A DNA stretch of 64,000 nucleotides from Nitratiruptor tergarcus DSM 16512. Its GTDB lineage: Bacteria; Campylobacterota; Campylobacteria; Campylobacterales; Nitratiruptoraceae. The notes under the pieces are model-generated. The model had not been told where the DNA came from and made no database searches. It worked only from the letters and a program-made list of their open reading frames with translations. Each line of letters begins with the position of its first letter. Positions within the stretch are counted from its first letter, which is position 1. The translations under genes and the position numbers were made by a program. Of the stretch, positions 35,515 to 64,000 are shown piece by piece. The stretch is from NCBI RefSeq assembly GCF_027946175.1, contig NZ_AP026671.1, positions 744,001 to 808,000 on the forward strand, read 5' to 3'.

Positions 35515-35524
35515 GTACACTAAA

Positions 35525-37315: not shown

Positions 37316-37776
37316 TTACAACAAAAATCTTTCAAGTCTATTGATAACCACATCCGAAAAATCGATATCTTTTTGTAAAGAATCATACATTGATTCATAC
37401 TCTTTTCTTTTTAACAATTTGTATAATATATCTTCGTTAAATTCCAGATAATCATGGATCAATACATTTCAAAATCCTATTGCGGCATTGAATGTGCGAT
37501 ACTCTTCGTCCATTATAGCTCCTGCCTCGTAGAGGATAGATACCGCATCTTTACTTCTTGTAGGTACTACCAGACAGTTGAAATATTTGAGCATTATTTC
37601 GATTTTCCAATAAGCATGTCAATGAGGACTTGGAAACTATTCTTTGCAGCACGTATCTCTATCTCATCGAGCTTTTGTTTATTTGCAAGTTTATCGGGGA
37701 TCTTTTTTCCTGAGAGGCTCTTTTTTGTATCTGTTCCAAGTACACTTCTAAGCTCATCTTCGTTGCCTTTTATCAT
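37316..37776 (-). pseudogene. Decayed MNT-HEPN remnant (HepT-like)
   Basis: The sequence parallels the intact HepT-like gene at 42,232. MIKGNEDELRSVLGTDTKK matches the tail of the neighbouring MNT protein, then KLDEIEIRAAKNSFQVLIDM matches the HEPN start. A frameshift after LIGKSK and an in-frame TGA in GF*NVLIHDYLEF follow. That TGA replaces the arginine of the RX4H motif. The end (KDIDFSDVVINRLERF) is still readable. It is a dead paralog of the 42-kb module. Confidence 0.8.
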
Positions 37777-37830
37777 AATATTAAACCATATAAAATTTAA
37801 AACAATCTTCAAATCTTAGTTAAAATTTAT

Positions 37831-38208
37831 TTAACATTCACTCAGATCTTTGTCAAAGCTCAACTTATCATAATTTTGGAGTTTACATTTAGCACATATC
37901 AAAGCATCTACAAAATCAATATTTTTATTTTCTATAATATTTAAATTTTCAAATAGTATTACTTTATCTTTATTCACAACCCCTTCCAAAGAAAGGATGA
38001 TTTTAAGGTCTGCTATTACATCATTTTTAGGTAGTTTATAAAATTTTGTAAGGACAAAAAAGACTTCCATTAAGACTTCACTCAAAATTTCAACTTTTAT
38101 TTTACCTTTCTCAATCTGCTCAAAATATTCAATACTTTTTCTTAGTAATACATCATTATCTCCTACTAAAAATCTAATAATAACATTTGCATCAAGAAGA
38201 TAGACCAT
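37831..38208 (-). CDS. PIN-domain ribonuclease toxin (VapC-like)
   Basis: 125 residues. Acidic PIN residues are visible: D6 in LLDANVIIRFL, E in SEVLMEVFF, D in NIDFVDALICAK and D in LSFDKDLSEC. Such proteins cut RNA and are held in check by the upstream partner. It overlaps the antitoxin gene by 17 bases. Length and motif set are complete. Confidence 0.85.
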   Translation of the reverse strand: MVYLLDANVIIRFLVGDNDVLLRKSIEYFEQIEKGKIKVEILSEVLMEVFFVLTKFYKLPKNDVIADLKIILSLEGVVNKDKVILFENLNIIENKNIDFVDALICAKCKLQNYDKLSFDKDLSEC

Positions 38209-38455
38209 ACTTTTCCTTCATAGCCTCTTGCATCGCTAACTCTTTAATCTTTTGTAATGAAAGATTGGTCTTTTCTATTCTGTTTTTATATTTGCCTGCT
38301 AATTTTTTTACAAACGGCTCTTGTTCTTTTTGCTTTACAGGATAGACTATTGCAAGAATTTCTTTTTTTCTCTTATCTACAATCTTTATCTCTTCAGTTA
38401 TATTTTTAAAAACAGAAATGTTTTTTTGTATCTCACCTATTCCGATGCTTATCAA
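38192..38455 (-). CDS. Antitoxin partner of the PIN toxin
   Basis: 87 residues. The N-terminus (MISIGIGEIQKNISVFKNI then EEIKIVDKRKKEILAIVYPV) looks like a Phd/YefM-type DNA-binding fold, and the C-terminus is a charged helix that would embrace the toxin. The call rests on size, overlap and position just before the PIN gene. It may autoregulate the pair. Confidence 0.75.
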   Translation of the reverse strand: MISIGIGEIQKNISVFKNITEEIKIVDKRKKEILAIVYPVKQKEQEPFVKKLAGKYKNRIEKTNLSLQKIKELAMQEAMKEKYGLSS

Positions 38456-38591
38456 AATTGTCCTTTGTTAAAAGTTGCGATATTTATATATATTTATACT
38501 ATTTTATATAAATAAGATTTTTTTGTCAATTTTTATAACAATTATTAACAAAATTTGTTACCATTTTCTTACCTTTCAAAAAAGAGCAAAT

Positions 38592-38879
38592 ATAAAACAA
38601 AGCTATGTCTATATTATGACGAGCATGAATCATCGTGCCATCTATATCGGAGTAACTAGCAACTTGGTAAAAAGAGTTTACGAACACAAAAACGGCTTGT
38701 GTGACGGATTTACTAAAAGATATCATTGCACAAAACTTGTCTATTTTGAAGTTTTTGACAATATCGATGAAGCCATCAATCGAGAAAAATATCTCAAAGG
38801 CAAGAAAAGAGATTTCAAAATTGCATTGATAGAGAAGCAGAATCCCAAGTGGCGTGATTTGTATGATGACATATTGTAG
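38592..38879 (+). CDS. GIY-YIG endonuclease-domain protein, start codon unclear
   Basis: About 95 residues of the short UPF0213-like type. The GIY-YIG motif is YVYIM...AIYIGVTSNLVKRVYEHK, followed by the conserved E in NREKYLKGKKRDFK. In relatives the start corresponds to M-K-Q-S-Y-V-Y. Here that codon is ATA (38,592), with AAGAG 6 bases before it. The frame is open upstream to an ATG at 38,475 without protein-like sequence, and ATG codons also occur at 38,616 and 38,625. The gene may be weakly expressed or newly damaged. Confidence 0.72.
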   Translation: MKQSYVYIMTSMNHRAIYIGVTSNLVKRVYEHKNGLCDGFTKRYHCTKLVYFEVFDNIDEAINREKYLKGKKRDFKIALIEKQNPKWRDLYDDIL

Positions 38880-38898
38880 ATCTATTGCTATGTTTCTC

Positions 38899-39003
38899 TG
38901 TCATCCTGAGACTTTGTATTCCCGTCATCCTGAGGCGTCAGCAGAAGGATCTATCCTATCTGCCGATCATTTATAGATCTTTCGCTACGCTCATGATGAC
39001 GAG
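38899..39003. repeat. REP-like hairpin repeat 1
   Basis: Two right-facing copies (GTCATCCTGAG) and one inverted copy (AGATCTTTCGCTACGCTCATGATGAC) lie between the GIY-YIG gene and the DUF4143 ATPase. The outer arms can pair. Confidence 0.85.
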
Positions 39004-39010
39004 ACATTAT

Positions 39011-40294
39011 TCACTTCTCTTCACCCTCCAAGAGCCATCTCCACAAAGGTTTGAGAAATATCTTGAAACCTTGTGATTCGATGACTCTATCTTCATCTTT
39101 TGTGATCAGACATCCACTTTCACTACCTACATATCGCATTCCTTCAATCAACGATTGCACTTCCCTTTCCAAAGTTTTCTTATCTTTCACATCATAAATG
39201 ACATTAACAAGCATTTTGCGACTAGGGATATAAAAATCCACCTCTCTTTTGCTTTTATAGTAGTAAATTTGTGAAAATCTTCTTCGTAAATGCAAAAAAA
39301 CTACATTCTCATACAATTTAGAATAATCTGGCGAAAAGGTAGTATCGTAAATATAGTTGAATCCATTATCTACGATAAACACCTTTTTGGGATTCCTCTG
39401 CTCTTCTTTGACAGAACTTTTGAAAATAGATGTAATAAAACAGGTATACGCATCGTTTAAATAAGCAAAATATTCAAAAAGCGTGTCTTTGGAGAGTCTA
39501 TATCCCATTGATTTGAAGTCGTTATAGAGTTTGGTAAAACTCACAAGTGTCGCTGGGTTGGAAAAAAGATATTTTATGAGAAGCTTCAAAAGTGCGAGAT
39601 TTTTGACTTTGTAGCGCTCTATGATATCCCTATACACTATCAAATCCACATAATCACGCAAAATTCTCGATTGGATATCTTCATCCTCTTCCAATACAAT
39701 TTCAGGAAATCCTCCTTTAACAACATAAATTTGCAATGCATTTTTTATATGAGAGAGACTTTTAGAGGAGTGGAGATTGATATCGATCTGCCTGAAGCGA
39801 AGGTATTCTTGAAAACTAAGTGGAAAAACTTCATAACTTATCGTCCTTCCCCTAAGTGATGTGGCAATCTCTTTTGACAAAAGTTTTGAGGATGAACCAG
39901 TTATAACAATATTTGCATTCAAAGTATCATGAATACGCCTAACAAATTTCTCCCAATAGGCAATTTCTTGAATCTCATCGAAAAAGAGGTAAATCTTCTC
40001 GTCTCGCTTTTGTGGATAGAGCTCAAAATAGGCTTCTATAAGTTTGTCAAAATCTTTATAATTCATTCCTATCAAACAATCATCTTCAAAATTTATATAA
40101 AGGATATTTTGTTTCAATCCTTTCTTTTTGAGTTTGTTTATCATTTCGTAAAGTAAATAGGTTTTACCCGACCTTCGCACGCCTATTAAAGAGACAATTT
40201 TCGAAGTTTCTATTGGAAGTGTATATGCTCTAGGTATGATTTCAATCTCTTTTTCTTGAAAATCAACAATGAGTCTTTTGAAGAGTTCTTTCAT
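39011..40294 (-). CDS. AAA_14/DUF4143 ATP-binding protein
   Basis: 427 residues. Walker A is GVRRSGKTYLLYEM, Walker B IYLFFDEIQEI, and VITGSSSKLLSKEIATSLRGR is the family signature. The C-terminal DUF4143 region has a PD-(D/E)xK-like start (KREVDFYIPS), but the position of the E-x-K pair reads NVIYDV, so nuclease activity is doubtful. Such ATPases are common accessory genes in archaea and thermophiles, with no settled role. A perfect palindrome sits directly before the ATG. Confidence 0.88.
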   Translation of the reverse strand: MKELFKRLIVDFQEKEIEIIPRAYTLPIETSKIVSLIGVRRSGKTYLLYEMINKLKKKGLKQNILYINFEDDCLIGMNYKDFDKLIEAYFELYPQKRDEKIYLFFDEIQEIAYWEKFVRRIHDTLNANIVITGSSSKLLSKEIATSLRGRTISYEVFPLSFQEYLRFRQIDINLHSSKSLSHIKNALQIYVVKGGFPEIVLEEDEDIQSRILRDYVDLIVYRDIIERYKVKNLALLKLLIKYLFSNPATLVSFTKLYNDFKSMGYRLSKDTLFEYFAYLNDAYTCFITSIFKSSVKEEQRNPKKVFIVDNGFNYIYDTTFSPDYSKLYENVVFLHLRRRFSQIYYYKSKREVDFYIPSRKMLVNVIYDVKDKKTLEREVQSLIEGMRYVGSESGCLITKDEDRVIESQGFKIFLKPLWRWLLEGEEK

Positions 40295-40318
40295 ATTATC
40301 CCTTTCTAAAGGGATAAT
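40295..40318. promoter_or_regulatory. Perfect palindrome abutting the DUF4143 ATPase start
   Basis: Arms ATTATCCCTTT and AAAGGGATAAT (11 bp, no mismatch) flank a 2-base centre and end at the base next to the ATG. On the minus-strand transcript the second arm contains the AAAGGGA ribosome site, so an RNA hairpin would hide it. Alternatively it is a DNA operator. Confidence 0.6.
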
Positions 40319-40418
40319 TTTACTATATTTTGTCCTCTTATATAAGGATAAATAGCAATATCAATCCCATTGTCACAAGACTCCATCATCATGAGGAAGC
40401 ACCGTAACTGAAGTATTT

Positions 40419-40584
40419 CCCGTCATCCTGAGGCGTCAGCCGAAGGATCTAATTTATCAACCATTCATCACAGATCTTTCGCTACGCTCAAGATGACGAG
40501 TAGCAGTCATTCTGAGGGAGCGGGAGTAACCGAAGGATCTACGTTGATTTTCCGATCACCCTGAGCCATTGGCGAAGAATCTAT
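40419..40584. repeat. REP-like hairpin repeats 2 (double)
   Basis: Two successive units: GTCATCCTGAGGCGTCAGCC...AGATGACGA, then GTCATTCTGAGGGAGC...GAATCTATG. They fill the gap between the ATPase and the HEPN gene. Confidence 0.85.
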
Positions 40585-40586
40585 GA

Positions 40587-41027
40587 TCATTTATTTTTTA
40601 TCTCTTGCAGATATCGCAATGTATTTTCCATAATCTCGATCAATTTTTCACTATACATCAAAACTTCATCGAATATCTCGATAAGATTTTCTTCAATATA
40701 CTCATGCACTATATCATTACGCAAATCTTTCATTATTCTTAACTCATCGATATCTTCAAAAAACCCGCGTTTATGAGCATTGTTTACAACATCAATGAGT
40801 GTTCCGGGATTTTCAAATTCATAAATATCTATGGAGCGAAATATCTTTCTGATAAGAAAATCGATTCCTCTGCTATATCTGGCACACAAAGTTTCAAATT
40901 TACCAAATTCTTCTGGAGTGTAACAATTTTTAATCCCAATATTTTTGCATTCATTGACAGAATAGCGTATCCAAAAGAGCTGTTTTTCAATGAGTCTTTT
41001 GTCTTCTAAAAGCTTTTCATACATCAT
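40587..41027 (-). CDS. HEPN-domain toxin (HepT-like)
   Basis: 146 residues, all helical. The RX4H ribonuclease motif is LRNDIVHEY near residue 107. HepT proteins of this type cut RNA and are kept silent by an MNT partner that attaches AMP to the Tyr after the His (type VII system). The 4-base overlap with the MNT gene upstream supports this. The HEPN subfamily differs from the other HEPN genes in this window. Confidence 0.83.
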   Translation of the reverse strand: MMYEKLLEDKRLIEKQLFWIRYSVNECKNIGIKNCYTPEEFGKFETLCARYSRGIDFLIRKIFRSIDIYEFENPGTLIDVVNNAHKRGFFEDIDELRIMKDLRNDIVHEYIEENLIEIFDEVLMYSEKLIEIMENTLRYLQEIKNK

Positions 41028-41308
41028 AACTCGACTGCTTGCTTACGTATCAGTTCGATAAAAGCATTTTTATTTCTTTTATTATCAAGAACAATATCGA
41101 TTTTTTGCTCTCCAAAATGTTTATAAAACTCCACCCGCAAAGCTCTTAAATCTTTTCTTGTGATATTCTCTCCTACTATCAAAAGATCTATATCCCCTCC
41201 TCTTTTGCTATCATCTGTCCTACTTCCAAAGAGGTAAATCTTCGCATTAGGAGAGATAGAGTAAAGCTTCTCTTTTAAAACCTTTATCTCTTTTTCGCTA
41301 AGCCGCAT
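41024..41308 (-). CDS. MNT-domain nucleotidyltransferase antitoxin (MntA-like)
   Basis: 94 residues, minimal nucleotidyltransferase. The GSRX(n)DxD motif reads IYLFGSRTDDSKRGGDIDLLIV, with a third acidic residue in KIDIVLDNKR. It likely AMPylates the HEPN partner. Start MRLSEKEI. Confidence 0.87.
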   Translation of the reverse strand: MRLSEKEIKVLKEKLYSISPNAKIYLFGSRTDDSKRGGDIDLLIVGENITRKDLRALRVEFYKHFGEQKIDIVLDNKRNKNAFIELIRKQAVEL

Positions 41309-41370
41309 CGTATAATCCTTATTCTTGTCTTTTTTATTTTATCAAACTATTATGGATTTTACATAAAAAA

Positions 41371-41530
41371 GCAGTCATTCTGAGGCTTTAGCCGAAGGAT
41401 CTACATTAATTTCCCGGTCACCCTGAGCAAAGCGAAGGGTCTACTTTTTAGTCAATTACCATCATAGATCTTTCGCTACGCTCAAGATGACGAAACTCTG
41501 TCATCTTGAGCCAAAAGTGAAGGAGCTACT
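41371..41530. repeat. REP-like hairpin repeats 3
   Basis: Units GTCATTCTGAGGCTTTAGCC, GTCACCCTGAGCAAAGCG, an inverted AGATCTTTCGCTACGCTCAA and GTCATCTTGAGCC lie between the MNT gene and the broken mazF. Confidence 0.85.
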
Positions 41531-41533
41531 TCC

Positions 41534-41868
41534 TTATCCCATATCAAACAATAACAATTTCAGTTTTTCCAGTACTTTTTCTAATACTTCCTCATCGACC
41601 TTTTCTACAAAAGCGACACTCCTTGCACGATAATCAAGAGTCCTTACTTGATCAGGGAGCACAACTCCTTGAATCTTTCCAGCTATAGCTACCTCAAAAG
41701 GATACCCTTTACTTTTGGATGTAATAGGAGAGGCGATACGCGGCCAACTTTCTTATTGTATTCATATGGTGAGAGAATCAATGCAGGCCTATGCCTTGCT
41801 TGTTCATGCCCTTTTTGAGGATTGAGCCCGACCCAAACGATATCACCGCGCTCAGGAATATAACTCAT
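41534..41868 (-). pseudogene. MazF/PemK-type toxin with a frameshift
   Basis: The ATG at 41,868 opens MSYIPERGDIVWVGLNPQKG then HEQARHRPALILSPYEYNKK, the typical MazF N-terminus. Near 41,741 the frame breaks. The remaining protein continues one frame over as RIASPITSKSKGYPFEVAIA through VVLPDQVRTLDYRARSVAFV to a stop at 41,534. Only one indel separates it from an intact gene of about 111 residues. The antitoxin mazE upstream is intact. Confidence 0.85.
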
Positions 41869-41882
41869 AGCAGCTCTTTTCC

Positions 41883-42095
41883 TTATATATCACCAAAATC
41901 TATTTCATGATGAACATTTTGTGGAGTTATTTGTGATAAGAGCGATTGTAAAGATTTCTTGGGAGTGAGGATTATTTTCCCATCTCTAATTTCGATATCG
42001 ATTTCGCTATTTTCTTGAAGATTAAGACTCTTCAATATCTGTTTGGAAAGTCTAATGCCATAGCTATTGCCCCATTTATTGATTTTGACTGTCAT
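41883..42095 (-). CDS. mazE: MazE-type AbrB-fold antitoxin
   Basis: 70 residues. MTVKINKWGNSYGIRLSKQI then LKSLNLQENSEIDIEI is the swapped-hairpin AbrB/MazE DNA-binding domain, and the C-terminal tail would wrap the MazF toxin. It ends 14 bases before the broken mazF gene. With the toxin dead, it may persist as an orphan regulator or as protection against related toxins. Confidence 0.9.
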   Translation of the reverse strand: MTVKINKWGNSYGIRLSKQILKSLNLQENSEIDIEIRDGKIILTPKKSLQSLLSQITPQNVHHEIDFGDI

Positions 42096-42132
42096 TTTCT
42101 ATCCTTATATACTTTGTATATACTTGTTGTAT

Positions 42133-42223
42133 CATAGATCTTTTGCTTTGCTCAAGATGATGAGTAGTAATCATCCTGATGCTTTACATCCTGGTCATCC
42201 TGAGTCGTAGGCGAAGGATCTAC
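42133..42223. repeat. REP-like hairpin repeat 4
   Basis: An inverted unit (AGATCTTTTGCTTTGCTCAAGATGA) followed by GTCATCCTGAGTCGTAGGCGAAGGATCTA separates mazE from the HepT-like gene. Confidence 0.82.
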
Positions 42224-42231
42224 CTTCAAAA

Positions 42232-42681
42232 TCACAAAGCAAATCTCTCTATTCTTTTTATGACTACATCGGAAAAATCTATATCTTTTTGCAAAAAATC
42301 GTATAGCTTCTCATATTGTCTACTTTGCAACAATTTATACAATATATCCTCATCAAATTCCAAATAGTCATGAATCAAGACATTGCGAAAACCGATTGCA
42401 GCATTGAATTCTCTATACTCTTCATCCTCTAGGGCTCCTACTTCATGGAGAATATACACAGCATCTTTACTCCTCGTGGGCACAACCGGACAATTGTAAA
42501 ATTTTAGAATCTTTTTCGATTTTCCTATAAGCATCTCGATCATCACTTGCAGACTATTTTTGGCCGCACGCAGCTCGATCTCATCGAGTTTCTCTTTGCT
42601 CGCAAGAATATCAAGAATCCTCTTCTCTTGGATCGCTCGCTTCTTTATCTGTTCCAAGTAGTCGTACAAGCTCATTTTCAC
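42232..42681 (-). CDS. HEPN-domain HepT-like toxin
   Basis: 149 residues, nucleotidyltransferase-substrate-binding type. The RX4HDY motif is FRNVLIHDYLEF near residue 98. LDEIELRAAKNSLQVMIEML is a typical N-terminal helix. It overlaps the MNT gene by 71 bases as drawn; no later in-frame ATG precedes the conserved part, so the overlap seems real or an unusual start is used. A degraded paralog lies at 37,316. Confidence 0.85.
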   Translation of the reverse strand: MKMSLYDYLEQIKKRAIQEKRILDILASKEKLDEIELRAAKNSLQVMIEMLIGKSKKILKFYNCPVVPTRSKDAVYILHEVGALEDEEYREFNAAIGFRNVLIHDYLEFDEDILYKLLQSRQYEKLYDFLQKDIDFSDVVIKRIERFAL

Positions 42682-42982
42682 TGCCTTTTATCAATATATG
42701 CCGATATGCTATCTCTCTTTTGATACTCTCTCCAGCTCGCAAAAAATCCACCAGATCGATATCTTCAACATCTATATCCATTGCATGGGCTATCTCCACC
42801 CACAACCTCGCAAAATCGCTTACATCCCCTCTATAGACTATTGCAAAATCATAGTCGCTGAAGGGATGTGCATCATTACCTACTCGTGATCCAAACAAAA
42901 CTGCCAAATCTATGTGAGAAAATCTTGCAAATATCTCTTTTAATGCTGCTATATCGATATTTTTTACAGGTAGTGGTATCAT
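42611..42982 (-). CDS. MNT-domain nucleotidyltransferase antitoxin
   Basis: 123 residues. The motif is LAVLFGSRVGNDAHPFSDYD FAIV (GSR then DYD), with a third acid in DVEDIDLVDFLRAGE. It partners the HepT-like protein. The tail (IKGSENELVRLLGTD) also survives in the 37-kb remnant, showing the pair was once duplicated as a unit. Confidence 0.86.
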   Translation of the reverse strand: MIPLPVKNIDIAALKEIFARFSHIDLAVLFGSRVGNDAHPFSDYDFAIVYRGDVSDFARLWVEIAHAMDIDVEDIDLVDFLRAGESIKREIAYRHILIKGSENELVRLLGTDKEASDPREEDS

Positions 42983-43021
42983 AGGAATATTATAGCGTAA
43001 TAGCGTATCACTTATAAACTT

Positions 43022-43050
43022 GGATCTTTCGCAACGCTCAAGATGACGAA
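43022..43050. repeat. REP-like half unit 5
   Basis: A single inverted half (GGATCTTTCGCAACGCTCAA then GATGACGA) upstream of the MNT gene. Confidence 0.75.
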
Positions 43051-43128
43051 TCTATTCGTCTAATGTGAAATAAAGGATTTATCACTTCTATATGTTATAA
43101 CCATAGAATAAATCAAAGATGTAAATCA

Positions 43129-43224
43129 TCAATGCTGCATTTTGTGTTTTTCCTTGAAAATAAGATACAATGCATAAGCACCAAGAATGCCGATTGTCAA
43201 TAATACATATGTTCCTGCACTCAT
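43129..43224 (-). CDS. 31-residue single-span membrane protein
   Basis: MSAGTYVLLTIGILGAYALY, then LIFKEKHKMQH and stop. One membrane helix is followed by a basic tail. Its ATG overlaps the TGA of the 67-residue gene before it (ATGA), which strongly suggests both are translated as a pair. The function is unknown. Confidence 0.62.
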   Translation of the reverse strand: MSAGTYVLLTIGILGAYALYLIFKEKHKMQH

Positions 43225-43424
43225 TTTTCAGCTCCTAAATTTATCAATTCCGTACCTATCCAAAAAGCCACCAACATACCGACAAAAAATTCCCAACCTA
43301 TATCGCCAAATTTACCTTTGACAATCGGTGTCACAACGGCGATTGCAAAGGTTATCTTACCTAAGTCATAAAATAACTTACCTAATTCTTTTAAAGCCTC
43401 TTTTTTCATTAATACCCTCTTCAA
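43221..43424 (-). CDS. 67-residue membrane protein with two spans
   Basis: A basic amphipathic start (MKRVLMKKEALKELGKLFYD) is followed by two hydrophobic segments (ITFAIAVVTPIVKG and WEFFVGMLVAFWIGTELINL). Translationally coupled to the 31-residue membrane protein. I do not recognise a named function. Its place among toxin-antitoxin modules suggests a small accessory cassette such as a membrane toxin or protective pair, but nothing proves that. Confidence 0.7.
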   Translation of the reverse strand: MKRVLMKKEALKELGKLFYDLGKITFAIAVVTPIVKGKFGDIGWEFFVGMLVAFWIGTELINLGAEK

Positions 43425-43498
43425 CGATTATATCATTTATTTTTATATTTTTGGTTGGATTGCAAAATTATATTTTATCATGTTATGCCCACTATTTT

Positions 43499-43612
43499 CG
43501 TCACCCTGAGCAAAGCGAATGATCTATTTTATTTACCATTCACCACAGATCTTTCACATTCATTCAGGATGACAAACCGTAGTCATCCTGAGGTGTCAGC
43601 CGAAGGATCTAT
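43499..43612. repeat. REP-like hairpin repeats 6
   Basis: GTCACCCTGAGCAAAGCG, an inverted AGATCTTTCACATTCATTCA and GTCATCCTGAGGTGTCAGCC occur in order between the small membrane pair and a PIN module. Confidence 0.85.
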
Positions 43613-43627
43613 CCTGAAACGGTCTGC

Positions 43628-44053
43628 TCAAATATCTTTTTCAAAATTATAATGCTCTAAAAATCCCTTACAATCAAAGATTTCTATACCACAATCAACA
43701 AATTTCTTATCATGGGTAATGAAAATGCATTTGTGTTTTTTAGCTGCAAAACACTGCAAAGCATCCTCAAAATCTACATTTTCCCTCAATGCAAATTCGA
43801 TGGCATTTTTCATTACATCTTTGTCAAAATATATAATATTCCAATCATCTATAATATCTTTAAAAAAATGTAAAACTTTTTGTTTATCTTTTACAAGATA
43901 ATAGATTGTACTTAACATATCTTCAGTGATAAAAATTTCACACTCTTGTTCTATCAACGCAGCTATTAATCTTACCGCCAAATGGTGAGAAGACCTTGAC
44001 TCATCCAAAAAATCTATAATGATATTGGTATCTAAAAAGATATTAGTTATCAC
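43628..44053 (-). CDS. PIN-domain ribonuclease toxin
   Basis: 141 residues. Acidic residues fit the PIN active site: D in IFLDTNIIIDFLDE, E in ITEDMLSTIYYL, D in NVDFEDALQCFAA and D in FITHDKKF. It overlaps the antitoxin gene by 11 bases. Confidence 0.87.
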   Translation of the reverse strand: MITNIFLDTNIIIDFLDESRSSHHLAVRLIAALIEQECEIFITEDMLSTIYYLVKDKQKVLHFFKDIIDDWNIIYFDKDVMKNAIEFALRENVDFEDALQCFAAKKHKCIFITHDKKFVDCGIEIFDCKGFLEHYNFEKDI

Positions 44054-44351
44054 CGTTTATCCCTGCTTTCGCCTTTGCTATCTCAGTTTTCAATTCTTTA
44101 GAAGACAAATTTTCAAATTTCTCATCTATTTTTATAGCACCAGCATATTGCATAATTTTACGTAATTTCTCTTCTTTAGCTTTTTGCTTTTTTTCTCTTA
44201 AATATTTTAAAAATTCGATTGCTTGCTCTTTTGATAGATAGATTCCTTTTAATTCATTAGTCTTTTTATCAACTATTTCTACTATTTCCATATTCTGCAG
44301 TTTATTGAAGCTTTTGGTAAATTCCCTCACTCCTATCTTTGGCATTCTCAT
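44043..44351 (-). CDS. Antitoxin partner of the second PIN toxin
   Basis: 102 residues. MRMPKIGVREFTKSFNKLQN then MEIVEIVDKKTNELKGIYLS resembles a Phd/YefM-like N-terminal domain. A lysine-rich helix follows. It sits directly upstream of, and overlapping, the PIN gene. Family placement is tentative; the partner role rests on context. Confidence 0.75.
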   Translation of the reverse strand: MRMPKIGVREFTKSFNKLQNMEIVEIVDKKTNELKGIYLSKEQAIEFLKYLREKKQKAKEEKLRKIMQYAGAIKIDEKFENLSSKELKTEIAKAKAGINGDN

Positions 44352-57481: not shown

Positions 57482-58840
57482 TTATTTCCTTTTAAAATCA
57501 TCTTCAATTCTCACAATATCATCTTCTCCTGTATATTCTCCCACTTGAGCCTCGATGAGCACTACGGGAATTTTACCAGGATTGGAGAGGCGGTGGATCT
57601 CCCCCATTTTGATATAAGTCGATTCGTTCGCTCGTACAAGATAGCGATCATCCCCCACTTGCACTTCCGCTGTGCCACTTACTACTATCCAGTGCTCGTT
57701 ACGGTGAAAGTGCTTTTGGAGTGAAAGTCTCTTACCAGGTTTGACTTCAATCCGCTTGATCTTGTAGCCACTGTCTTCTACGAGAACTTCATATGTCCCC
57801 CAAGGGCGATGGACTTTGGTATGGGCATTGAGAAGCTCTGGATGAGATGTTTGCAATCTACCTACAAGCTCTTTGACTTTTTGTGTCTCGCCTCGTTTGG
57901 CAATGAGCAGAGCATCATTGGTATCAATGATGATAAGATTATCTATGCCAATAGTAGCTATAAGTTTTTTATTATTGTCACTATAATAAAAATTATTTTC
58001 ACTCTCTATCTCAATATTATCAGTTTCACTGTCGATATACTCAGTAAGACTATCAAAACTTCCCACATCACTCCAGCTAAATTCACTCGGCACCATTTTG
58101 ATTTTATCGCTCTTTTCCATCACGGCGTAGTCTATGCTGATATCTGGGATCTTTTCCATAAATTCTGGAGTTATGCGGCGAATTTTCCCATCGATTTTGC
58201 TGTTTTCATAGGCCCTCTTTGCACTTTCATAAAGTTCTGGAGCATGCTTTTGCAGCTCTTTGAGGTAGACGCCAGCTTTGAATAAAAACATTCCACTATT
58301 CCAAAAGTAGTTACCTTTAGCAAGATACTCTTTGGCTTTTTGCTTGTCTGGCTTTTCATGAAACTTTACCACATCCTCGCCATCCGCTTCGATATATCCA
58401 TAGCCACCATGCGGCTCGGTAGGCTTGATACCAAATGTCACAAGCCCACCATTTTTGGCCAAATCTTTTGCTCTTTGGATCGCTTCATGATATTTTTCTT
58501 CATCTTCGATCAAATGATCGCTTGGAGTGATAAAAAGTAGCTCATCTTCATCCACACTCATCGCACCAAAGGCGATAGCCGCTGCGGTATTTCTGCCAAA
58601 TGGCTCGAGGATATAGCCATCTGTATCTATTCCTATCTCATCGACTTGATCGTTAGCCAAAAAATACTGCTCCTCGTTGGAGATGATAAGAATTTTATCA
58701 CTTAAAGGTACATTCCTTTGTAGTGTTTTTTGAAAAAGCGATTTATTATCAAAAAGCTGTAAAAACTGTTTTGGCATGAGTTTTCGACTCAAAGGCCAGA
58801 GTCTCGTACCGCTTCCACCACTGAGAATTATATTTGTCAT
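57482..58840 (-). CDS. manC: Mannose-1-phosphate guanylyltransferase / mannose-6-phosphate isomerase
   Basis: 452 residues, bifunctional type II. The nucleotidyltransferase signature is ILSGGSGTRLWPLSRKLMPK. FITPSDHLI and VKFHEKPDK follow. The C-terminal cupin isomerase domain includes RPWGTYEVL and KPGKRLSLQKHFHRNEHWIV with metal-binding His and Glu. It makes GDP-mannose for gmd-fcl. No manB is seen in the window. Confidence 0.95.
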   Translation of the reverse strand: MTNIILSGGSGTRLWPLSRKLMPKQFLQLFDNKSLFQKTLQRNVPLSDKILIISNEEQYFLANDQVDEIGIDTDGYILEPFGRNTAAAIAFGAMSVDEDELLFITPSDHLIEDEEKYHEAIQRAKDLAKNGGLVTFGIKPTEPHGGYGYIEADGEDVVKFHEKPDKQKAKEYLAKGNYFWNSGMFLFKAGVYLKELQKHAPELYESAKRAYENSKIDGKIRRITPEFMEKIPDISIDYAVMEKSDKIKMVPSEFSWSDVGSFDSLTEYIDSETDNIEIESENNFYYSDNNKKLIATIGIDNLIIIDTNDALLIAKRGETQKVKELVGRLQTSHPELLNAHTKVHRPWGTYEVLVEDSGYKIKRIEVKPGKRLSLQKHFHRNEHWIVVSGTAEVQVGDDRYLVRANESTYIKMGEIHRLSNPGKIPVVLIEAQVGEYTGEDDIVRIEDDFKRK

Positions 58841-58914: not shown

Positions 58915-59030
58915 ACGTCATATTGAGGGAAACGAAACATCTCTATGTGGGTTGACAAATTTGGGTGGATCCTTCGCCGTTGGCTCAGGATGATTAAGGC
59001 TGTCATCTTGTGTAAAGCGAAAGATATATG
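58915..59030. repeat. REP-like hairpin repeats 7
   Basis: A degenerate unit (GTCATATTGAGGGAAACGAA), an inverted GGATCCTTCGCCGTTGGCTC then AGGATGA, and GTCATCTTGTGTAAAGCGAA fill the space between manC and the HEPN pseudogene. Confidence 0.8.
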
Positions 59031-59035
59031 AAAAT

Positions 59036-59447
59036 CTAGAGCAAATTCTCTTTTTCAATACCCACTATCTCTAAAACTTGCTCAAATATATCATTTGCAA
59101 ATTCATAAAACTCTTTTTGCATCTTCGAGTGACGGTTTGCCATCTGGTAATAATCCCAAATCTCCTGGATATCTTGCATCCATATAAAGCTCATTGATCT
59201 TGAACATAGTCTTTTCATCTTCGATTTTAATGTCATTTTCTATAAGAGAATATAAGGCAAAAAGGTTATGCTTTTTAGGGATATTCTGCCTTTTATATTC
59301 GATTAAGGCTTTAAATGATTTTTCTATTGCCTGCTGAGCATGGAAAGAAGCTATAGGAGTGAGATGTTCATTACCCAATAAATATTCTATAGCTTGGATA
59401 TCTAAATAAACAGCTTTCAACCATTCTTTGGCTATTTGCGAAGCCAT
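59036..59447 (-). pseudogene. HEPN-domain gene with one-base frameshift
   Basis: MASQIAKEWLKAVYLDIQAI, then FHAQQAIEKSFKALIEYKRQ, is the PF05168-type HEPN start. After LPDGKPSLEDAK the frame breaks at a five-A run (five T on the plus strand, 59,114-59,118), where the paralog at 59,919 has four. The rest (EFYEFANDIFEQVLEIVGIE) is intact in the other frame and almost identical to that paralog. One base would restore the gene, so it may be phase-variable, freshly dead, or a sequencing slip. Confidence 0.83.
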
Positions 59448-59776
59448 AAAACTATACCTTTTTGGATTTCTTTGGCAAAAGAGCTATTGTTTTCTATAAA
59501 TTTTTGATGCATCGGTTTTGTATGGACAATGAAATCCAGTCCAAAATCTTTCGCAATGTTTTCTAACGGTTTAAAATAACGAAATTTTAAATCCATCTTT
59601 TCATTCACATTTTGAGGAATATAATCATCTTTCGTTACAATATAGAGATCTATATCACTCTCTTCGTTTGACTTGCCATACGCATAGGAGCCAAAGAGGA
59701 TGATCTTATCTGGTTCAAGTGGTTTGAGCCGCTCTACGATCTCGTTTTTGAGTTTTTCTATGTCTATTTTGCTCAT
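59432..59776 (-). CDS. MNT-domain nucleotidyltransferase, array copy 1
   Basis: 114 residues. The motif is IILFGSYAYGKSNEESDIDL YIV (GS then DID), with a third acid in FGLDFIVHT. The first 55 or so residues are nearly the same as in the copies at 60,323 and 61,418, but the second half is distinct. It overlaps its HEPN partner by 16 bases. Confidence 0.86.
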   Translation of the reverse strand: MSKIDIEKLKNEIVERLKPLEPDKIILFGSYAYGKSNEESDIDLYIVTKDDYIPQNVNEKMDLKFRYFKPLENIAKDFGLDFIVHTKPMHQKFIENNSSFAKEIQKGIVLWLRK

Positions 59777-59801
59777 ATTTATTTCTTGTGGGTTTTTTGT
59801 T

Positions 59802-59807
59802 ATTGTA
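59802..59807 (-). promoter_or_regulatory. Shared extended -10 of MNT copy 1
   Basis: TGCTACAAT on the minus strand, 26 bases before the ATG, inside the conserved block CCAATATGCTACAATAA that precedes each complete MNT copy. Confidence 0.5.
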
Positions 59808-59816
59808 GCATATTGG

Positions 59817-59912
59817 GTAGATCCTTCGGCTAAAGCCTCAGGATGACAAAAAAATAGTCATCCTGAACGAATGTGAAGGATCTCGTTATCTTGAGAGAAG
59901 CGAAAGATCTAT
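59817..59912. repeat. REP-like hairpin repeats 8
   Basis: AGATCCTTCGGCTAAAGCCT then CAGGATGAC, then GTCATCCTGAACGAATGTGA and a third arm TTATCTTGAGAGAAGCGAAA. Lies between the MNT copy 1 promoter and the HEPN of copy 2. Confidence 0.85.
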
Positions 59913-59918
59913 GAAAAT

Positions 59919-60326
59919 CTATAGCAAATTCTCTTTTTCAATACCCACTATCTCTAAAACTTGCTCAAATATATCATTTGCAAATTCATAAAACTCTTTT
60001 GCATCTTCGAGTGTTGGTTTTCCATAAGGTAAAAGTCCCATATCCCCAGGATATCTTGAATCTATATAGAGTTGATTTAAAGTATCAAGTAAATCATCAT
60101 CTGCAGAAATATCGTTAGAAACAGCTTCTTTTAATTTTATCAAGTCATGTTGTTTGGGTACTCTTATATTTTTGTATTCCATTAAAGCTTTGAAGGATTT
60201 TTCTATAGATTGTTGCGCGTGAAATGCAATCATGTGTGTTAAATCTGGTGAATCTATGATTTTTGAAATAACTTTAAGATCGTCATAAGAAGCTTTAATC
60301 CATGCGTAATAGAGCGGCTGCTTCAC
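59919..60326 (-). CDS. HEPN-domain protein, array copy 2 (intact)
   Basis: 135 residues. MKQPLYYAWIKASYDDLKVI leads to HMIAFHAQQSIEKSFKALME, then RVPKQHDLIKL (R followed by H five residues later), the probable catalytic pair. The last 30 residues, EFYEFANDIFEQVLEIVGIE and on, are shared with copies 1 and 3. It overlaps the MNT gene by 4 bases. Confidence 0.86.
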   Translation of the reverse strand: MKQPLYYAWIKASYDDLKVISKIIDSPDLTHMIAFHAQQSIEKSFKALMEYKNIRVPKQHDLIKLKEAVSNDISADDDLLDTLNQLYIDSRYPGDMGLLPYGKPTLEDAKEFYEFANDIFEQVLEIVGIEKENLL

Positions 60327-60658
60327 AAGCGTATTCCTCGTCGAATCTCATATTTATAGAAACTACTATTTTGTTTCACAAATTCTTCATGCATTTTTTT
60401 GGTATGTACTATGATATCTATAGGAATATCCTTTCTCAAATCTCTCAATAATCGAGCTATTTTTAAATAGAGTTCATTCTTTTCTTTGAAATTTCTGGGT
60501 ATATACTCATCCTTCGTCACAATATAGAGATCGATATCACTCTCTTCGTTTGGCTCCCCATAGGCATAGGAACCAAAGAGAATGATCTTATCTGGTTCAA
60601 GTGGTTTGAGCCGCTCTACGATCTCTTTTTTGAGTTTTTCGATATCTATTTTGCTCAT
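60323..60658 (-). CDS. MNT-domain nucleotidyltransferase, array copy 2
   Basis: 111 residues. IILFGSYAYGEPNEESDIDL YIVTKDEYIP, then DIPIDIIVHTKKMHEEFVK. It probably AMPylates or otherwise tames the coupled HEPN protein. The N-terminal half closely matches copies 1 and 3. Confidence 0.87.
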   Translation of the reverse strand: MSKIDIEKLKKEIVERLKPLEPDKIILFGSYAYGEPNEESDIDLYIVTKDEYIPRNFKEKNELYLKIARLLRDLRKDIPIDIIVHTKKMHEEFVKQNSSFYKYEIRRGIRL

Positions 60659-60682
60659 ATTTTGCTCTGGTAGATTTTTATT

Positions 60683-60688
60683 ATTGTA
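60683..60688 (-). promoter_or_regulatory. Shared extended -10 of MNT copy 2
   Basis: Same TGCTACAAT block as in copy 1, here 25 bases upstream of the ATG. Confidence 0.5.
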
Positions 60689-60698
60689 GCATATTGGG

Positions 60699-60760
60699 TA
60701 GATCCCACGCCGTTGGCTCAGGATGACGGAAAGCTGTCATCTTGAGCGCAGCGAAAGATC
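60699..60760. repeat. REP-like hairpin repeat 9
   Basis: AGATCCCACGCCGTTGGCTC AGGATGAC and GTCATCTTGAGCGCAGCGAA AGATC face each other between MNT copy 2 and the RelE/ParE toxin. Confidence 0.83.
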
Positions 60761-60773
60761 AAAAACTTTATAA

Positions 60774-61034
60774 TCACTTATAAACATCACCTCTACTTAC
60801 AGCTTTAATAACTTCTATAATTAACTCTTCTTCTAACACTCTAAATATTATTCTATATTTACCAATGCGTAACCTATAAACATTTTGAAAACCTTTTAAC
60901 TCTTTAATATCAAATCTATCAAGTTCTAATTCATGTTTCAGTTCATCAAATGTTGACATAATTTTTTGAACTATTTCCTTCTTCTGCTTTTGCAAAAATT
61001 TTATGACCTGTTTACTATATTTTATTCTATACAT
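60774..61034 (-). CDS. RelE/ParE-family toxin
   Basis: 86 residues. MYRIKYSKQVIKFLQKQKKE, then FDIKELKGFQNVYRLRIGKY and RIIFRVLEEELIIEVIKAVS RGDVYK follow the RelE/ParE fold closely. It would cleave mRNA on the ribosome (RelE type) or poison gyrase (ParE type); sequence alone does not decide. It overlaps the antitoxin gene by 13 bases. Confidence 0.87.
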   Translation of the reverse strand: MYRIKYSKQVIKFLQKQKKEIVQKIMSTFDELKHELELDRFDIKELKGFQNVYRLRIGKYRIIFRVLEEELIIEVIKAVSRGDVYK

Positions 61035-61279
61035 AATAATTTTTTGACTTCATTCTCATCATAATATTCCTGCTTCTGCATGAGAGCTTTTATATCTTCT
61101 TTTGTAGGGATGATAAACTCTTTATCTCCTTCTACTACTACAATATCACCTAAATCATCGATGTATGTAAACGATTTTTTCTTCTTTTTTGCAAGTTTTT
61201 TGAGAAAAACAATAACATCATTAAAAAGTTCTGGATCAACTTCAAAAATTTTTGCATTATTATTGGTCACCATAATCAT
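61022..61279 (-). CDS. Antitoxin of the RelE/ParE pair
   Basis: 85 residues, charged, with a lysine-rich middle (FLKKLAKKKKKSFTYIDDLG) and an acidic C-terminal helix (IKALMQKQEYYDENEVKKLL). No classical HTH or Phd motif is clear. It is assigned as antitoxin because it precedes and overlaps the toxin gene. Confidence 0.72.
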   Translation of the reverse strand: MIMVTNNNAKIFEVDPELFNDVIVFLKKLAKKKKKSFTYIDDLGDIVVVEGDKEFIIPTKEDIKALMQKQEYYDENEVKKLLCIE

Positions 61280-61417
61280 AAAGTATCCTTTTTCATTAAT
61301 TATATTACCATAAAAGAATCAACATATATTTTATCAATTCACTTTCACAAATATCTAGAATTTGGTAAATATTTTGCAAAAGATCCTCTGTAAAACTTTT
61401 TCTTTTTTGGAAAAGAT

Positions 61418-61759
61418 CTATTTGACATAAATCATTCTACCCTTCTTTATGATTTTCTTGTAAAATTGATCTCTTATATTTTCCATTCTATGTTTAATCC
61501 TACTCTTACAATCGACAAATACATCAGATCCAATCTTATATTTTTCTACGATATCCCACAATAGTATTTGAGCTTGTAACATTTCATCTCTTAGCTTCTC
61601 TTTTTCTAATGCATCTTTAATGATAAACAGATCGATATCGCTCTCTTCGTTTGGCTCGCCATAGGCATAGGAACCAAAAAGGATAATTTTGTCTGGATTG
61701 AGTGGTTTGAGCCGTTCCATGATCTCGTTTTTGAGTTTTTCTATATCTATTTTGCTCAT
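61418..61759 (-). CDS. MNT-domain nucleotidyltransferase, array copy 3, no HEPN partner
   Basis: 113 residues. The N-terminus (MSKIDIEKLKNEIMERLKPL, GSYAYGEPNEESDIDLFII) belongs to the same set as copies 1 and 2, while residues after about 58 (DALEKEKLRDEMLQAQILLW, GSDVFVDCKSRIKHR) are of another MNT subtype. No HEPN gene follows; 138 bases later the RelE/ParE antitoxin begins. It looks like a hybrid left over after partner loss. Confidence 0.84.
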   Translation of the reverse strand: MSKIDIEKLKNEIMERLKPLNPDKIILFGSYAYGEPNEESDIDLFIIKDALEKEKLRDEMLQAQILLWDIVEKYKIGSDVFVDCKSRIKHRMENIRDQFYKKIIKKGRMIYVK

Positions 61760-61785
61760 TTTTTTAATCTTAGTGGTTTTTTATT

Positions 61786-61791
61786 ATTGTA
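61786..61791 (-). promoter_or_regulatory. Shared extended -10 of MNT copy 3
   Basis: TGCTACAAT again, 27 bases upstream of the ATG, in the conserved block CCAATATGCTACAATAA. Confidence 0.5.
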
Positions 61792-61800
61792 GCATATTGG

Positions 61801-61865
61801 ATAGATTCTTCGGCTAAGGCCTCAGGATGACGGGAATAGAGACTCAGAATGTGTGTGACGGAATC
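61801..61865. repeat. REP-like hairpin repeat 10 (partly decayed)
   Basis: AGATTCTTCGGCTAAGGCCT CAGGATGAC is clear. The second half (GACTCAGAATGTGTGTGACG) is degenerate. Confidence 0.72.
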
Positions 61866-61907
61866 GAGAAATTTTAAAATGACAGAGAAATTTTATGGTA
61901 TTTATTG

Positions 61908-61936
61908 CGTTTTTAAAAAATTATATTTCAAAAACG
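61908..61936. repeat. 29-bp palindromic element at the ATPase 3' end
   Basis: CGTTTTT and AAAAACG frame a 15-base AT centre. The TGA stop of the ATPase gene lies within it. It matches the element at 63,297-63,325 in inverted orientation at 27 of 29 bases. Confidence 0.7.
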
Positions 61937-63286
61937 AATAAAATCAAGAATTTCCACAAGAAATAATTTTTCTGGATTATTTCGTGCAAAATCAATTAGC
62001 TCTTGAGTAAAGCCGCTTTTGGAGAAGAGAATATATTTTTTTTGAGGATATTCTATCAATGCTGATTTATGTACTAGCTTTTGGTATACATCCATACAGA
62101 CTTTTCTCTTTTGCCATTTGCATTCACCAAAGAGATAGTAATCATCCCCTATTCCAACAAGATCAATCTCTTCATTTTTACTCCACCATCTGCCACATCT
62201 TATTAATGAAAAATGCTCTTTAACAAAATCTATCGCCAACTCTTCATAAGTTTTGGATACAAACTGGTCGAAACTCTCTTTGATTTTTTTTATAACATAC
62301 TCTTTGTTTCCCATCTCTAAATAGGATTTAAAGGGAAATACAAACGCAAACCAAAACCGCAAAAATTGATCTTTAATAAAATAGAGTCCTTTTTTGCTTT
62401 TTTGTGGATTTGTCTCGGTAATTGGAACCTCTTTGACTATTATTTCAAGATCTATCAGTTTTTGCAAAGAAGTCGTGAAATTGTGTACGGGCTTTTGCAA
62501 TCTTTTTGCTATATTTCCAATTTTATGCTCTCCAGCGGCAATCACTTCCAAAATAGAAAAATATGTCGTAGGTTCATTAATCTCATCTTGCAAGAGAAAA
62601 TAGGGCTCATAATATAAAAAGGCATTTGGATCGAGTATATTAGATTCGATTGTAGCGAATATATCCTCAAAATCTCCAAAAATCTCCAAATACTTCGGTA
62701 TACCGCCAAGAATGCTATAAATCTCTATGAGCTCTTGTTTTTTCTTTTTTGGAAAAAATTTATCTATATAGATAAATTGCAAGGGAGAGAGTTTGATATT
62801 GGAAGTTCTTCGACCATACAGGGGTGATGAATATGCCAAAGTCTCTCTATACATCATAGATATAATCGAACCACAAAGAATAAGAAAAATATTGCTTGAT
62901 TTAAGATAGTTGTCGCAAATAGTTTGGAAAATCGATGCAATCGCTGGATTTACTTTCGCAAGATACTGAAATTCATCTATTACAATGGTAACTTTTTGGT
63001 TTTTTTGAACAATATAGAGAAAAAGCTCTTCAAAACTACCAATTGTAACTTTTCGCAAAAATTCGTCTGCAAAATAGTCTGCTACTATATTTTTGAATTT
63101 TTCAAGCAGCAAGTGCTCATTTTCGAGTGTTGCCAAGAAGTAAATACCTCTTTTTTTGGAAAGAAACTTCTGGATAAGCGCTGTTTTTCCAACTCTACGG
63201 CGTCCATAAATGATGCAAAAGCGAAAATTTTTATGGTTATACTCTTTTTCCAAAATCTTTAATTCTTTTTCTCTATCTACAAACAT
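61928..63286 (-). CDS. Archaeal-type ATPase (PF01637) with DUF234 nuclease-like domain
   Basis: 452 residues. MFVDREKELKILEKEYNHKN is the family start. Walker A is GRRRVGKTALIQKF and Walker B VTIVIDEFQYL. A winged-helix part follows (ILEVIAAGEHKIGNIAKRLQ). The C-terminal DUF234 part contains NEEIDLVGIGDDYYLFGECKWQ, which fits a PD-(D/E)xK nuclease (D, then E-x-K). Unlike the DUF4143 protein, these residues look intact. The role is unknown; such genes spread in archaea and thermophilic bacteria. A broken relative lies at 35,085. Confidence 0.88.
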   Translation of the reverse strand: MFVDREKELKILEKEYNHKNFRFCIIYGRRRVGKTALIQKFLSKKRGIYFLATLENEHLLLEKFKNIVADYFADEFLRKVTIGSFEELFLYIVQKNQKVTIVIDEFQYLAKVNPAIASIFQTICDNYLKSSNIFLILCGSIISMMYRETLAYSSPLYGRRTSNIKLSPLQFIYIDKFFPKKKKQELIEIYSILGGIPKYLEIFGDFEDIFATIESNILDPNAFLYYEPYFLLQDEINEPTTYFSILEVIAAGEHKIGNIAKRLQKPVHNFTTSLQKLIDLEIIVKEVPITETNPQKSKKGLYFIKDQFLRFWFAFVFPFKSYLEMGNKEYVIKKIKESFDQFVSKTYEELAIDFVKEHFSLIRCGRWWSKNEEIDLVGIGDDYYLFGECKWQKRKVCMDVYQKLVHKSALIEYPQKKYILFSKSGFTQELIDFARNNPEKLFLVEILDFIRF

Positions 63287-63293
63287 GTTAAAC

Positions 63294-63328
63294 TTTCGTT
63301 TTTGAAATATTATATTTTAAAAACGAAA
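63294..63328. promoter_or_regulatory. Palindrome upstream of the ATPase-nuclease gene
   Basis: Perfect 10-bp arms TTTCGTTTTT and AAAAACGAAA, 15 bases apart, begin 7 bases before the ATG. It contains the 29-bp element also seen at the 3' end of the gene. Confidence 0.65.
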
Positions 63329-63351
63329 ATAAGTAAAGTGCGGGGATTTAT

Positions 63352-63380
63352 CGGTCATCTTGAGTGAAGCGAGAGATCTA
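63352..63380. repeat. REP-like half unit 11
   Basis: GTCATCTTGAGTGAAGCGAG AGATCTA, a single arm that ends on the stop codon of the HEPN copy 4 gene. Confidence 0.75.
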
Positions 63381-63787
63381 TAACAACTCATTTTTCTCAA
63401 TCCCAATAATTCGGATAGCTTGCTCAAATATCTCATTTGCAAATTCGTAAAACTCTTTTGCATCTTCGAGTGTTGGTCTGCCATCTGGTAGTAATCCCAA
63501 ATCTCCTGGATATCGAGATTCTATATATAGACTTTTAAACGAAATAAAATTTTCTCATTTTCAAGTTTTATATTATTTCCAATTAATCTATACAGATGAA
63601 CTATATCGTGTTTTTTGGGTATCTGTGATTCATGAAATTCCAATAGACCTTTGAAAGACTTCTCGATTGCCTGCTGGGCATGAAAAGAGGCTATGTGAGT
63701 TAATAGCGGATCATTTAAGATTTTTTGAATAACCAAAATATCGCTATATGCCGCTTTAAGCCACTCTGTGGCCATCTTTATGTTCAT
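63378..63787 (-). pseudogene. HEPN-domain gene, array copy 4, frameshifted
   Basis: MNIKMATEWLKAAYSDILVI and FHAQQAIEKSFKGLLEFHES start a HEPN protein. Near 63,533-63,541 a one-base loss shifts the frame (KILFRLKVYI then stop). The other frame continues with SLYIESRYPGDLGLLPDGRP and EFYEFANEIFEQAIRIIGIE to 63,378. The arginine of the RX4H motif found in copy 2 is not obvious here (SQIPKKHDIV). Confidence 0.8.
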
Positions 63788-64000
63788 AAATAACTCTTCC
63801 TTGCTGTAAAATCGTTTTGCTAAATGAACTTTTTGATTCGATAAACTTTTGATGCATTTTTTTTGTGTGGACAATAATATCTAGAGGAAAATGGACATAC
63901 ATGTCAGCTAATCGCTGTGAATAAAGTAGTACAAGATCATTCTTTTCACGCCAACTTTTAGGAATATAATCATCTTTAGTTACGATATAGAGATCTATAT
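63756..64000 (-). CDS. MNT-domain nucleotidyltransferase, array copy 4, cut by the window end
   Basis: The visible part reads IDLYIVTKDDYIPKSWREKN, then FPLDIIVHTKKMHQKFIESK and ends GRVIYEHKDGHRVA. It is the C-terminal two thirds of an MNT protein like copy 2 and overlaps the HEPN gene by 32 bases. The start lies beyond 64,000. Confidence 0.82.
   Translation of the reverse strand, partial: IDLYIVTKDDYIPKSWREKNDLVLLYSQRLADMYVHFPLDIIVHTKKMHQKFIESKSSFSKTILQQGRVIYEHKDGHRVA

Follow-up and report, generated by a model that had tools for sequence, protein, structure and literature searches.

Background

HEPN/MNT toxin-antitoxin (TA) modules pair a HEPN gene with an MNT gene. The characterised kind is type VII (Class I), known as HepT/MntA from Shewanella (SO_3166/SO_3165), Aphanizomenon and Legionella. 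Class II HEPN/MNT modules, which combine a PF05168 HEPN (COG2250) with a PF01909 MNT, are described in passages of three papers as multi-copy and mobile (PMC7641770, PMC2701414, PMC3710099), and one passage stated that no biochemistry on Class II HEPN/MNT existed (PMC7641770). Makarova et al. 2009 regarded islands of TA pairs as inexplicable by tandem duplication (PMC2701414), and Anantharaman et al. 2013 recorded crenarchaeal clusters of several MNT and HEPN genes (PMC3710099). In this study, we analyzed an array of such modules in Nitratiruptor tergarcus DSM 16512, whose genome comprises 1.94 Mb in two contigs. The window, that is, the whole stretch of 64,000 nucleotides analyzed here, corresponds to C1:744001-808000 (NZ_AP026671.1), and positions below are counted from its first letter. 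We consider it likely that the array consists of tandem Class II HEPN/MNT modules whose outer parts, termed arms, have been shared by homologous recombination, around cores that differ from module to module.

Results and discussion

Classification of the modules

The MNT proteins matched PF01909 at 42.7-49.5 bits (cut-off 21) and carried the GSX10DXD motif as GSYAYGEPNEESDID. The adjacent HEPN proteins matched PF05168 at 57.2, 64.3 and 38.7 bits (cut-off 22), and this was the sole HEPN family matched. The RX4HXY motif was not found in these HEPNs: H60 is invariant and is followed by D-L in HEPN2, and R55 is not conserved. Y87 and Y92, invariant across 32 HEPNs, could be acceptor tyrosines for adenosine monophosphate. 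Judged by sequence, the modules fit the definition of Class II HEPN/MNT and presumably act as adenylylation-controlled toxins. The first-pass annotation had named type VII MNT-HEPN systems as the known kind; the HEPNs of the array are of the Class II kind. Type VII HepT/MntA was rejected because the HEPNs belong neither to PF01934 nor to PF08780, RX4HXY is lacking, and the NCBIfam MntA model scored 29-34 bits against a cut-off of 60.

Constant arms and variable cores

As transcribed from the minus strand, the gene order is MNT5-HEPN5, MNT4-HEPN4, an ATPase gene (PF01637/DUF234), MNT3, a RelE/ParE-type pair, MNT2-HEPN2 and MNT1-HEPN1 (Table 1). Three MNT genes with a common promoter block, ATG and N-terminal arm had been annotated at first; this was borne out, and the array proved larger, with five MNTs, two of which reach or lie past the window end. 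Core types were assigned by similarity to the window cores as A (MNT1, MNT2 and MNT4) and B (MNT3 and MNT5), with a further type C taken from a metagenome-assembled genome (MAG) of Campylobacterales (G048).

The promoter block GGATCTACCCAATATGCTACAATAA, the ATG and about 44 codons are common to all five MNTs, and the shared part extends to about 55 codons in MNT1, MNT2 and MNT4, with divergence beyond. Among the five copies, DNA identity was 84-92% over codons 1-44 and 39-66% over the remainder. Arm and core also differ in age: synonymous divergence (dS) of the arms was 0.28-1.3 within the array, against saturated cores. The arm of module 1 is 92% identical to those of modules 2 and 4 (dS 0.28-0.33; core saturated), and the MNT1-MNT2 pair gave a dS of 0.36 for the arm and 3.8 for the core. 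In nine of the ten MNT pairs, the core exceeded the arm in third-position differences (p<0.02).

At the other end of the module, HEPN1 and HEPN2 share a 78-nt identical run at the 3' end, with 65% identity overall, and their tails contain 19 consecutive informative sites (permutation p = 5e-5). The HEPN4 tail is less alike, and HEPN5, just beyond the window, belongs to a different HEPN subfamily without the A-type tail. The 5' arm was found in 5/5 modules and the 3' arm is limited to the A-type modules. The last 30 codons that the HEPN genes had been said to share are shared by HEPN1 and HEPN2 as DNA, with HEPN4 distant, and not as protein, as HEPN1 and HEPN4 are frameshifted so that the tail is out of frame.

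In the predicted MNT2 structure (predicted local distance difference test, pLDDT, 93.6), the GSX10DXD loop sits in the arm together with alpha 1, beta 1 and beta 2; the core takes up alpha 2 (57-70), beta 3 and the helices of the C-terminus. The model is similar to the MNT chains of solved HEPN-MNT complexes (7bxo, 8xeh), and the HEPN2 model (pLDDT 93.9) to the HEPN structures 1wol and 1ufb; sequence searches of the PDB with HEPN2 and MNT2 returned no matches. In solved complexes, alpha 2 of the MNT is the common HEPN contact (PMC11586414). Taken with this docking, the fold model suggests that the catalytic part lies within the constant arm and that partner choice probably lies within the core.

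Separate histories of arm and core

Trees were constructed from 62 sequences obtained in a survey seeded with arm peptides. Since the arm tree was built from DNA with 123 columns and few supported forks, approximately unbiased (AU) tests carry more weight here than its topology. Core type changed 22 times on the arm tree, compared with a shuffled mean of about 25, and twice on the core tree. The arm data rejected an A-type clade (AU p = 7e-6) and accepted a clade of the five array genes plus the gene of a sister species, G004 (0.97), whereas the core data supported the A-type clade (98.5) and rejected the genome clade (AU p = 1e-76). Mean arm identity was 0.621 for pairs of the same core type and 0.617 for pairs of different types. 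The arms are lineage-specific and are not conserved in unrelated single-copy MNT-HEPN loci, and core types A and B are older than the genera. A variable core between recombining constant arms, as first proposed, is upheld by this disagreement between the trees of the two MNT halves and by the lineage-specific arms. It also follows that trees of whole MNT genes blend two histories.

The type of the MNT core and the type of the HEPN were linked in all 77 modules with a detectable partner (A, 41/41; B, 36/36), which indicates that cores travel as matched units and are not re-paired. The new toxin/antitoxin pairings that exchange had been expected to create were thus not seen.

MNT3 and its orthologue in the sister species

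At the syntenic position in G004, bounded by the same pair of flanking genes, there is a single module. Its MNT is orthologous to MNT3 (protein identity 86%), and the HEPN behind it, of the B type, is broken. Downstream of MNT3 itself, a HEPN remnant aligned locally to the G004 HEPN tail with a score of 116, compared with a shuffled maximum of 53. Partnerless MNT3 had been read as a hybrid produced by recombination between arms, which was not borne out: with its orthologue at the syntenic locus, MNT3 is the resident single-copy module minus its toxin, the HEPN having been lost by internal deletion.

The comparison still indicates recombination. Between MNT3 and G004, dS was 0.036 for the core and 0.505 for the arm, with 0.40, 1.13 and 1.54 for flanking genes, and codons 1-35 account for 9 of the 11 synonymous changes (p = 0.005 by permutation across all breakpoints). 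On these values the core is far more recent than the divergence of the two species, unlike the arm, and would have moved between the lineages after they separated.

Recurrence in other genomes

The layout recurs in independent arrays, namely in MAGs of Arcobacteraceae (L135), Sulfurovum (L124), Campylobacterales (L051/G048) and Candidatus Caenarcaniphilales (L086), and both ends are constant in L086 and L135. In L086, identity between the two modules is 98% for the MNT heads (52 codons), 50% for the cores and about 97% for the HEPN tails (about 115 nt); arm/core dS was 0.035/1.7, and 0.00/1.20 in the comparison with control pairs. Three MNT heads in L135, 89-92% identical, are joined to cores of types B, B and C (arm/core dS 0.23/1.2 and 0.23/1.1), and in its HEPNs the tail dS was 0.26 and the head was saturated. 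L124 (arm/core dS 0.40/1.3) and L051 show the 5' part of the layout, and the G048 array is present in two MAG records, 99.8% identical. Within the 3.6 kb contig of L051, five unlike MNT genes (L051:199-3625) have a similar N-terminal leader (LTPL/LSPL) from a CCCCTTT-like repeat. Of the 397 genomes covered in the class, two had close arrays of such MNTs, namely the source genome and G407, probably identical with the L135 genome. Viral contigs yielded no relative of the MNT alignment and phage records no DNA match, and plasmids yielded distant single MNTs only (<60% identity).

Partial copies were also found. A 34-nt remnant of the HEPN tail stands 5' of the first module in L086. In both L086 and L124 the final module is followed by a broken copy of the MNT head, and in L049 a broken head is duplicated. 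Together with the arrays above, these remnants suggest that the repeated block is the joint between a HEPN tail and an MNT head.

Proposed mechanism

The 5' arm comprises the promoter, the start codon and that half of the MNT which holds the catalytic motif, and the 3' arm the last HEPN helix. The core, that is, the rest of the MNT including alpha 2 together with HEPN helices 1-4, is inherited as one matched unit. We propose that recombination from arm to arm, within the array and with related DNA of other lineages, would replace a core or the arm surrounding it, and the outcome would be a new cognate pair under the resident promoter, fused to the resident catalytic half. The long, near-identical coding arms and the lack of a recombinase gene beside the array argue for homologous recombination, with a RecA-type process as the presumed agent. 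An integron-like, site-specific cassette array was rejected, as no integrase-like open reading frame (ORF) lies beside the array and the shared blocks are coding arms. That cores move, beyond mere overwriting of arms, is favoured in the case of MNT3 by its young core, which settles the matter in part.

A more general and tentative idea, to which we give slightly less than an even chance, is that the joint of a HEPN tail and the next MNT head would be a recurrent homologous docking block at which Class II cores enter and leave arrays as cassettes, a general route that would spread insulated TA specificities across phyla.

Several points weigh against the arm-recombination explanation. The four other arrays lie on MAG contigs, and the evidence for exchange compares species and arrays, with none between strains. 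The arm tree is short and poorly resolved, and its sample derives from the arm-peptide survey. As the B-type HEPN is without the A-type tail, the 3' arm is constant within one subfamily only. The arms in the window are not very young and are mostly as close to G004 as to one another, so that recent exchange within the genome is demonstrated for the HEPN1/HEPN2 tails only. Core movement rests mainly on the single MNT3/G004 pair and its few synonymous changes, and with most toxin genes broken, present function is doubtful.

Broken toxins and alternative explanations

All five MNTs are open, and one of the five HEPNs (HEPN2) is intact. In HEPN1 a run of A is one base longer than in HEPN2 (five against four), and the frame is thereby cut ahead of helix 5, which covers residues 106-127 of the HEPN2 model; HEPN4 has lost one base in a short run; and HEPN5 has an in-frame TAA near its start. 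The frameshifts of HEPN1 and HEPN4 may be sequencing errors. Programmed frameshifting of HEPN1 was set aside, as its GCA AAA AGA is without a classic slippery heptamer. A broken HEPN beside an open MNT is frequent (59036-59447, 63378-63787, L010:6203-6620, L054:4559-4937 and L086:5781-6192), and at the G004 locus both MNT and HEPN are broken.

With 4/5 HEPN genes broken, the array is partly relic. It is possible, though somewhat doubtful, that it is to be read as a decaying relic, in which the toxins are mostly dead, the MNTs are retained to act on newly arriving modules as anti-addiction antitoxins, and old recombination is all that the arms record. The two frameshifts, the stop in HEPN5, the HEPN3 remnant, the five intact MNTs and the likewise broken G004 locus all fit such decay; module 2, however, is intact and the L135 modules appear so. 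Decay bears on present function and not on the origin of the layout, and is compatible with recombination between arms.

Concerted evolution alone, in which gene conversion homogenises the arms and no core has left the place of its original acquisition, appears somewhat unlikely. The same discordance of arm and core would be expected within a genome, and a conversion tract is evident in the HEPN1/HEPN2 tail. The interspecies dS of the MNT3 core is nevertheless far below the 0.40-1.5 of the flanking genes, so the core itself appears to have moved, and the arm of the sister species is mostly at least as close to the window arms as these are to one another.

A further alternative, tandem duplication with later diversifying selection at the TA interface and purifying selection on the catalytic and promoter parts, would place the catalytic motif and promoter in the arms and the interface in the cores, as is found. 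It is nonetheless highly improbable, since selection at the protein level does not saturate synonymous sites, as in the cores here and in L086, and core types A and B predate the genera. Furthermore, arm and core had similar dS in eight control pairs of like-typed MNTs across genomes (e.g. 0.24/0.17, 0.32/0.45 and 0.37/0.32; ratio about 0.4-2.5), and among array paralogues the arm value lay far under the core value in most pairs. Similarly improbable is the idea that the promoter, the start of translation or RNA structure constrains the 5' arm at the nucleotide level in all MNT genes, which would suit the strongly conserved -10 promoter block of the five copies but is opposed by these same controls, where arm dS is not reduced, by arms that vary freely between lineages and by the reversed MNT3/G004 pair, in which the arm is more diverged than the core.

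Array setting and neighbouring genes

The array begins after a mannose-1-phosphate guanylyltransferase gene (57482-58840) and reaches about 1 kb beyond the window end, toward a glycosyltransferase gene. A mannose-1-phosphate guanylyltransferase gene also adjoins the L135 array (L135:5732-7153), and an insertion hot spot common to both arrays beside this gene is possible. The REP-like (repetitive extragenic palindrome-like) sequence GTCATCYTGAGYGNARCGAARGATC, with at most two mismatches, has seven copies in the genome, confined to the TA-rich stretches 38976-43047 and 59002-63386, which flank a surface-polysaccharide gene region.

Inside the array, the DUF234-type ATPase gene (61928-63286) is located between 34-nt inverted repeats (61905-61938 and 63295-63328, 91% complementary), and no transposase was seen at this bracketed segment (61905-63328). 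PADLOC places the ATPase near the candidate family PDC-S27, and pieces of a second copy lie at 35091-35520. A second TA-rich island (37454-44351) holds apparent PIN-type pairs, two MNT-HEPN-like pairs and a MazE/AbrB-like gene. Its MNTs are without the array arms, and the MNT-HEPN pairs at 41.0-42.9 kb were absent from the MNT1 matches in the same genome, an internal negative control.

Table 1 Features of the HEPN/MNT array (window positions)
Feature	Position	Strand	Basis or remark
MNT1 (PF01909), A-type core	59432..59776	-	Profile match
MNT2 (PF01909), A-type core	60323..60658	-	Profile match; predicted fold, pLDDT 93.6
MNT3 (PF01909), B-type core	61418..61759	-	Orthologue of single MNT at G004 syntenic locus
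MNT4, A-type core	63756-64121, in-window part 63756..64000	-	ORF
MNT5, B-type core	64603-64932 (extended coordinates, beyond window)		ORF
Module 1 5' arm: promoter block, ATG, MNT1 codons 1-44 (GSX10DXD catalytic motif)	59645..59819	-	Identity, dS
Module 2 5' arm: promoter block, MNT2 codons 1-44	60527..60703	-	Repeat comparison
Module 3 5' arm: promoter block, MNT3 codons 1-44	61628..61806	-	Repeat comparison
HEPN1 (PF05168), A type	59036..59447	-	Frameshifted at T5 run 59114-59118; frame 59103-59447 stops short of helix 5
HEPN2 (PF05168), GTG start, sole intact HEPN in array	59919..60326	-	Predicted fold, pLDDT 93.9
HEPN3 (B type), 3'-end remnant	61327..61394 (approx.)	-	Local alignment to G004 HEPN tail
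HEPN4, A type	63378..63787	-	Frameshifted at TTTT run 63533-63536
Module 1 3' arm: HEPN tail (helix 5), same as HEPN2 tail	59036..59113	-	78-nt identical run
Module 2 3' arm: HEPN tail	59919..59996	-	78-nt identical run
Module 4 3' arm: HEPN tail, more distant copy	63378..63455	-	79% identity, repeat family D2
REP-like repeat 3' of module 1	59002..59034	.	Repeat family D7
REP-like repeat 3' of module 2	59885..59917	.	Repeat comparison
REP-like repeat between module 2 and RelE/ParE-type pair	60736..60768	.	Repeat comparison
REP-like repeat 3' of module 4	63354..63386	.	Repeat comparison

Comparison with known systems

The array resembles Class II HEPN/MNT (PF05168/PF01909; COG2250 HEPN) in its domains, gene order, GSX10DXD motif, missing RX4HXY and conserved tyrosine. 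Passages of the Class II literature deal with clusters, islands and mobility, and make no mention of constant arms, variable cores or arm-to-arm recombination (PMC7641770, PMC2701414, PMC3710099); no description of constant arms with swapped cores in HEPN/MNT was found in the open-access papers searched. Type VII HepT/MntA is alike in the MNT fold and its catalytic motif, the upstream MNT and the probable docking of alpha 2 on the HEPN, but its HEPN is of a different family with a different catalytic motif.

Outside the HEPN/MNT family, two systems offer parallels. In contact-dependent inhibition and Rhs polymorphic toxins, recombination exchanges matched pairs of toxin C-terminus and immunity gene next to a part that does not vary. 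That unvarying part is a large delivery protein, whereas in the array an intracellular module of two genes keeps both its ends constant, one of which includes the catalytic half of the antitoxin. In the hsdS genes of type I restriction systems, constant coding segments provide the homology for swapping variable specificity segments. HsdS is a single DNA-recognition subunit, while the piece swapped in the array spans two genes and a protein-protein interface. How new TA specificities can originate without the death of the cell is still to be explained, and replacement of the recognition core in one piece, under a fixed promoter and catalytic half, would give it a direct and testable answer.

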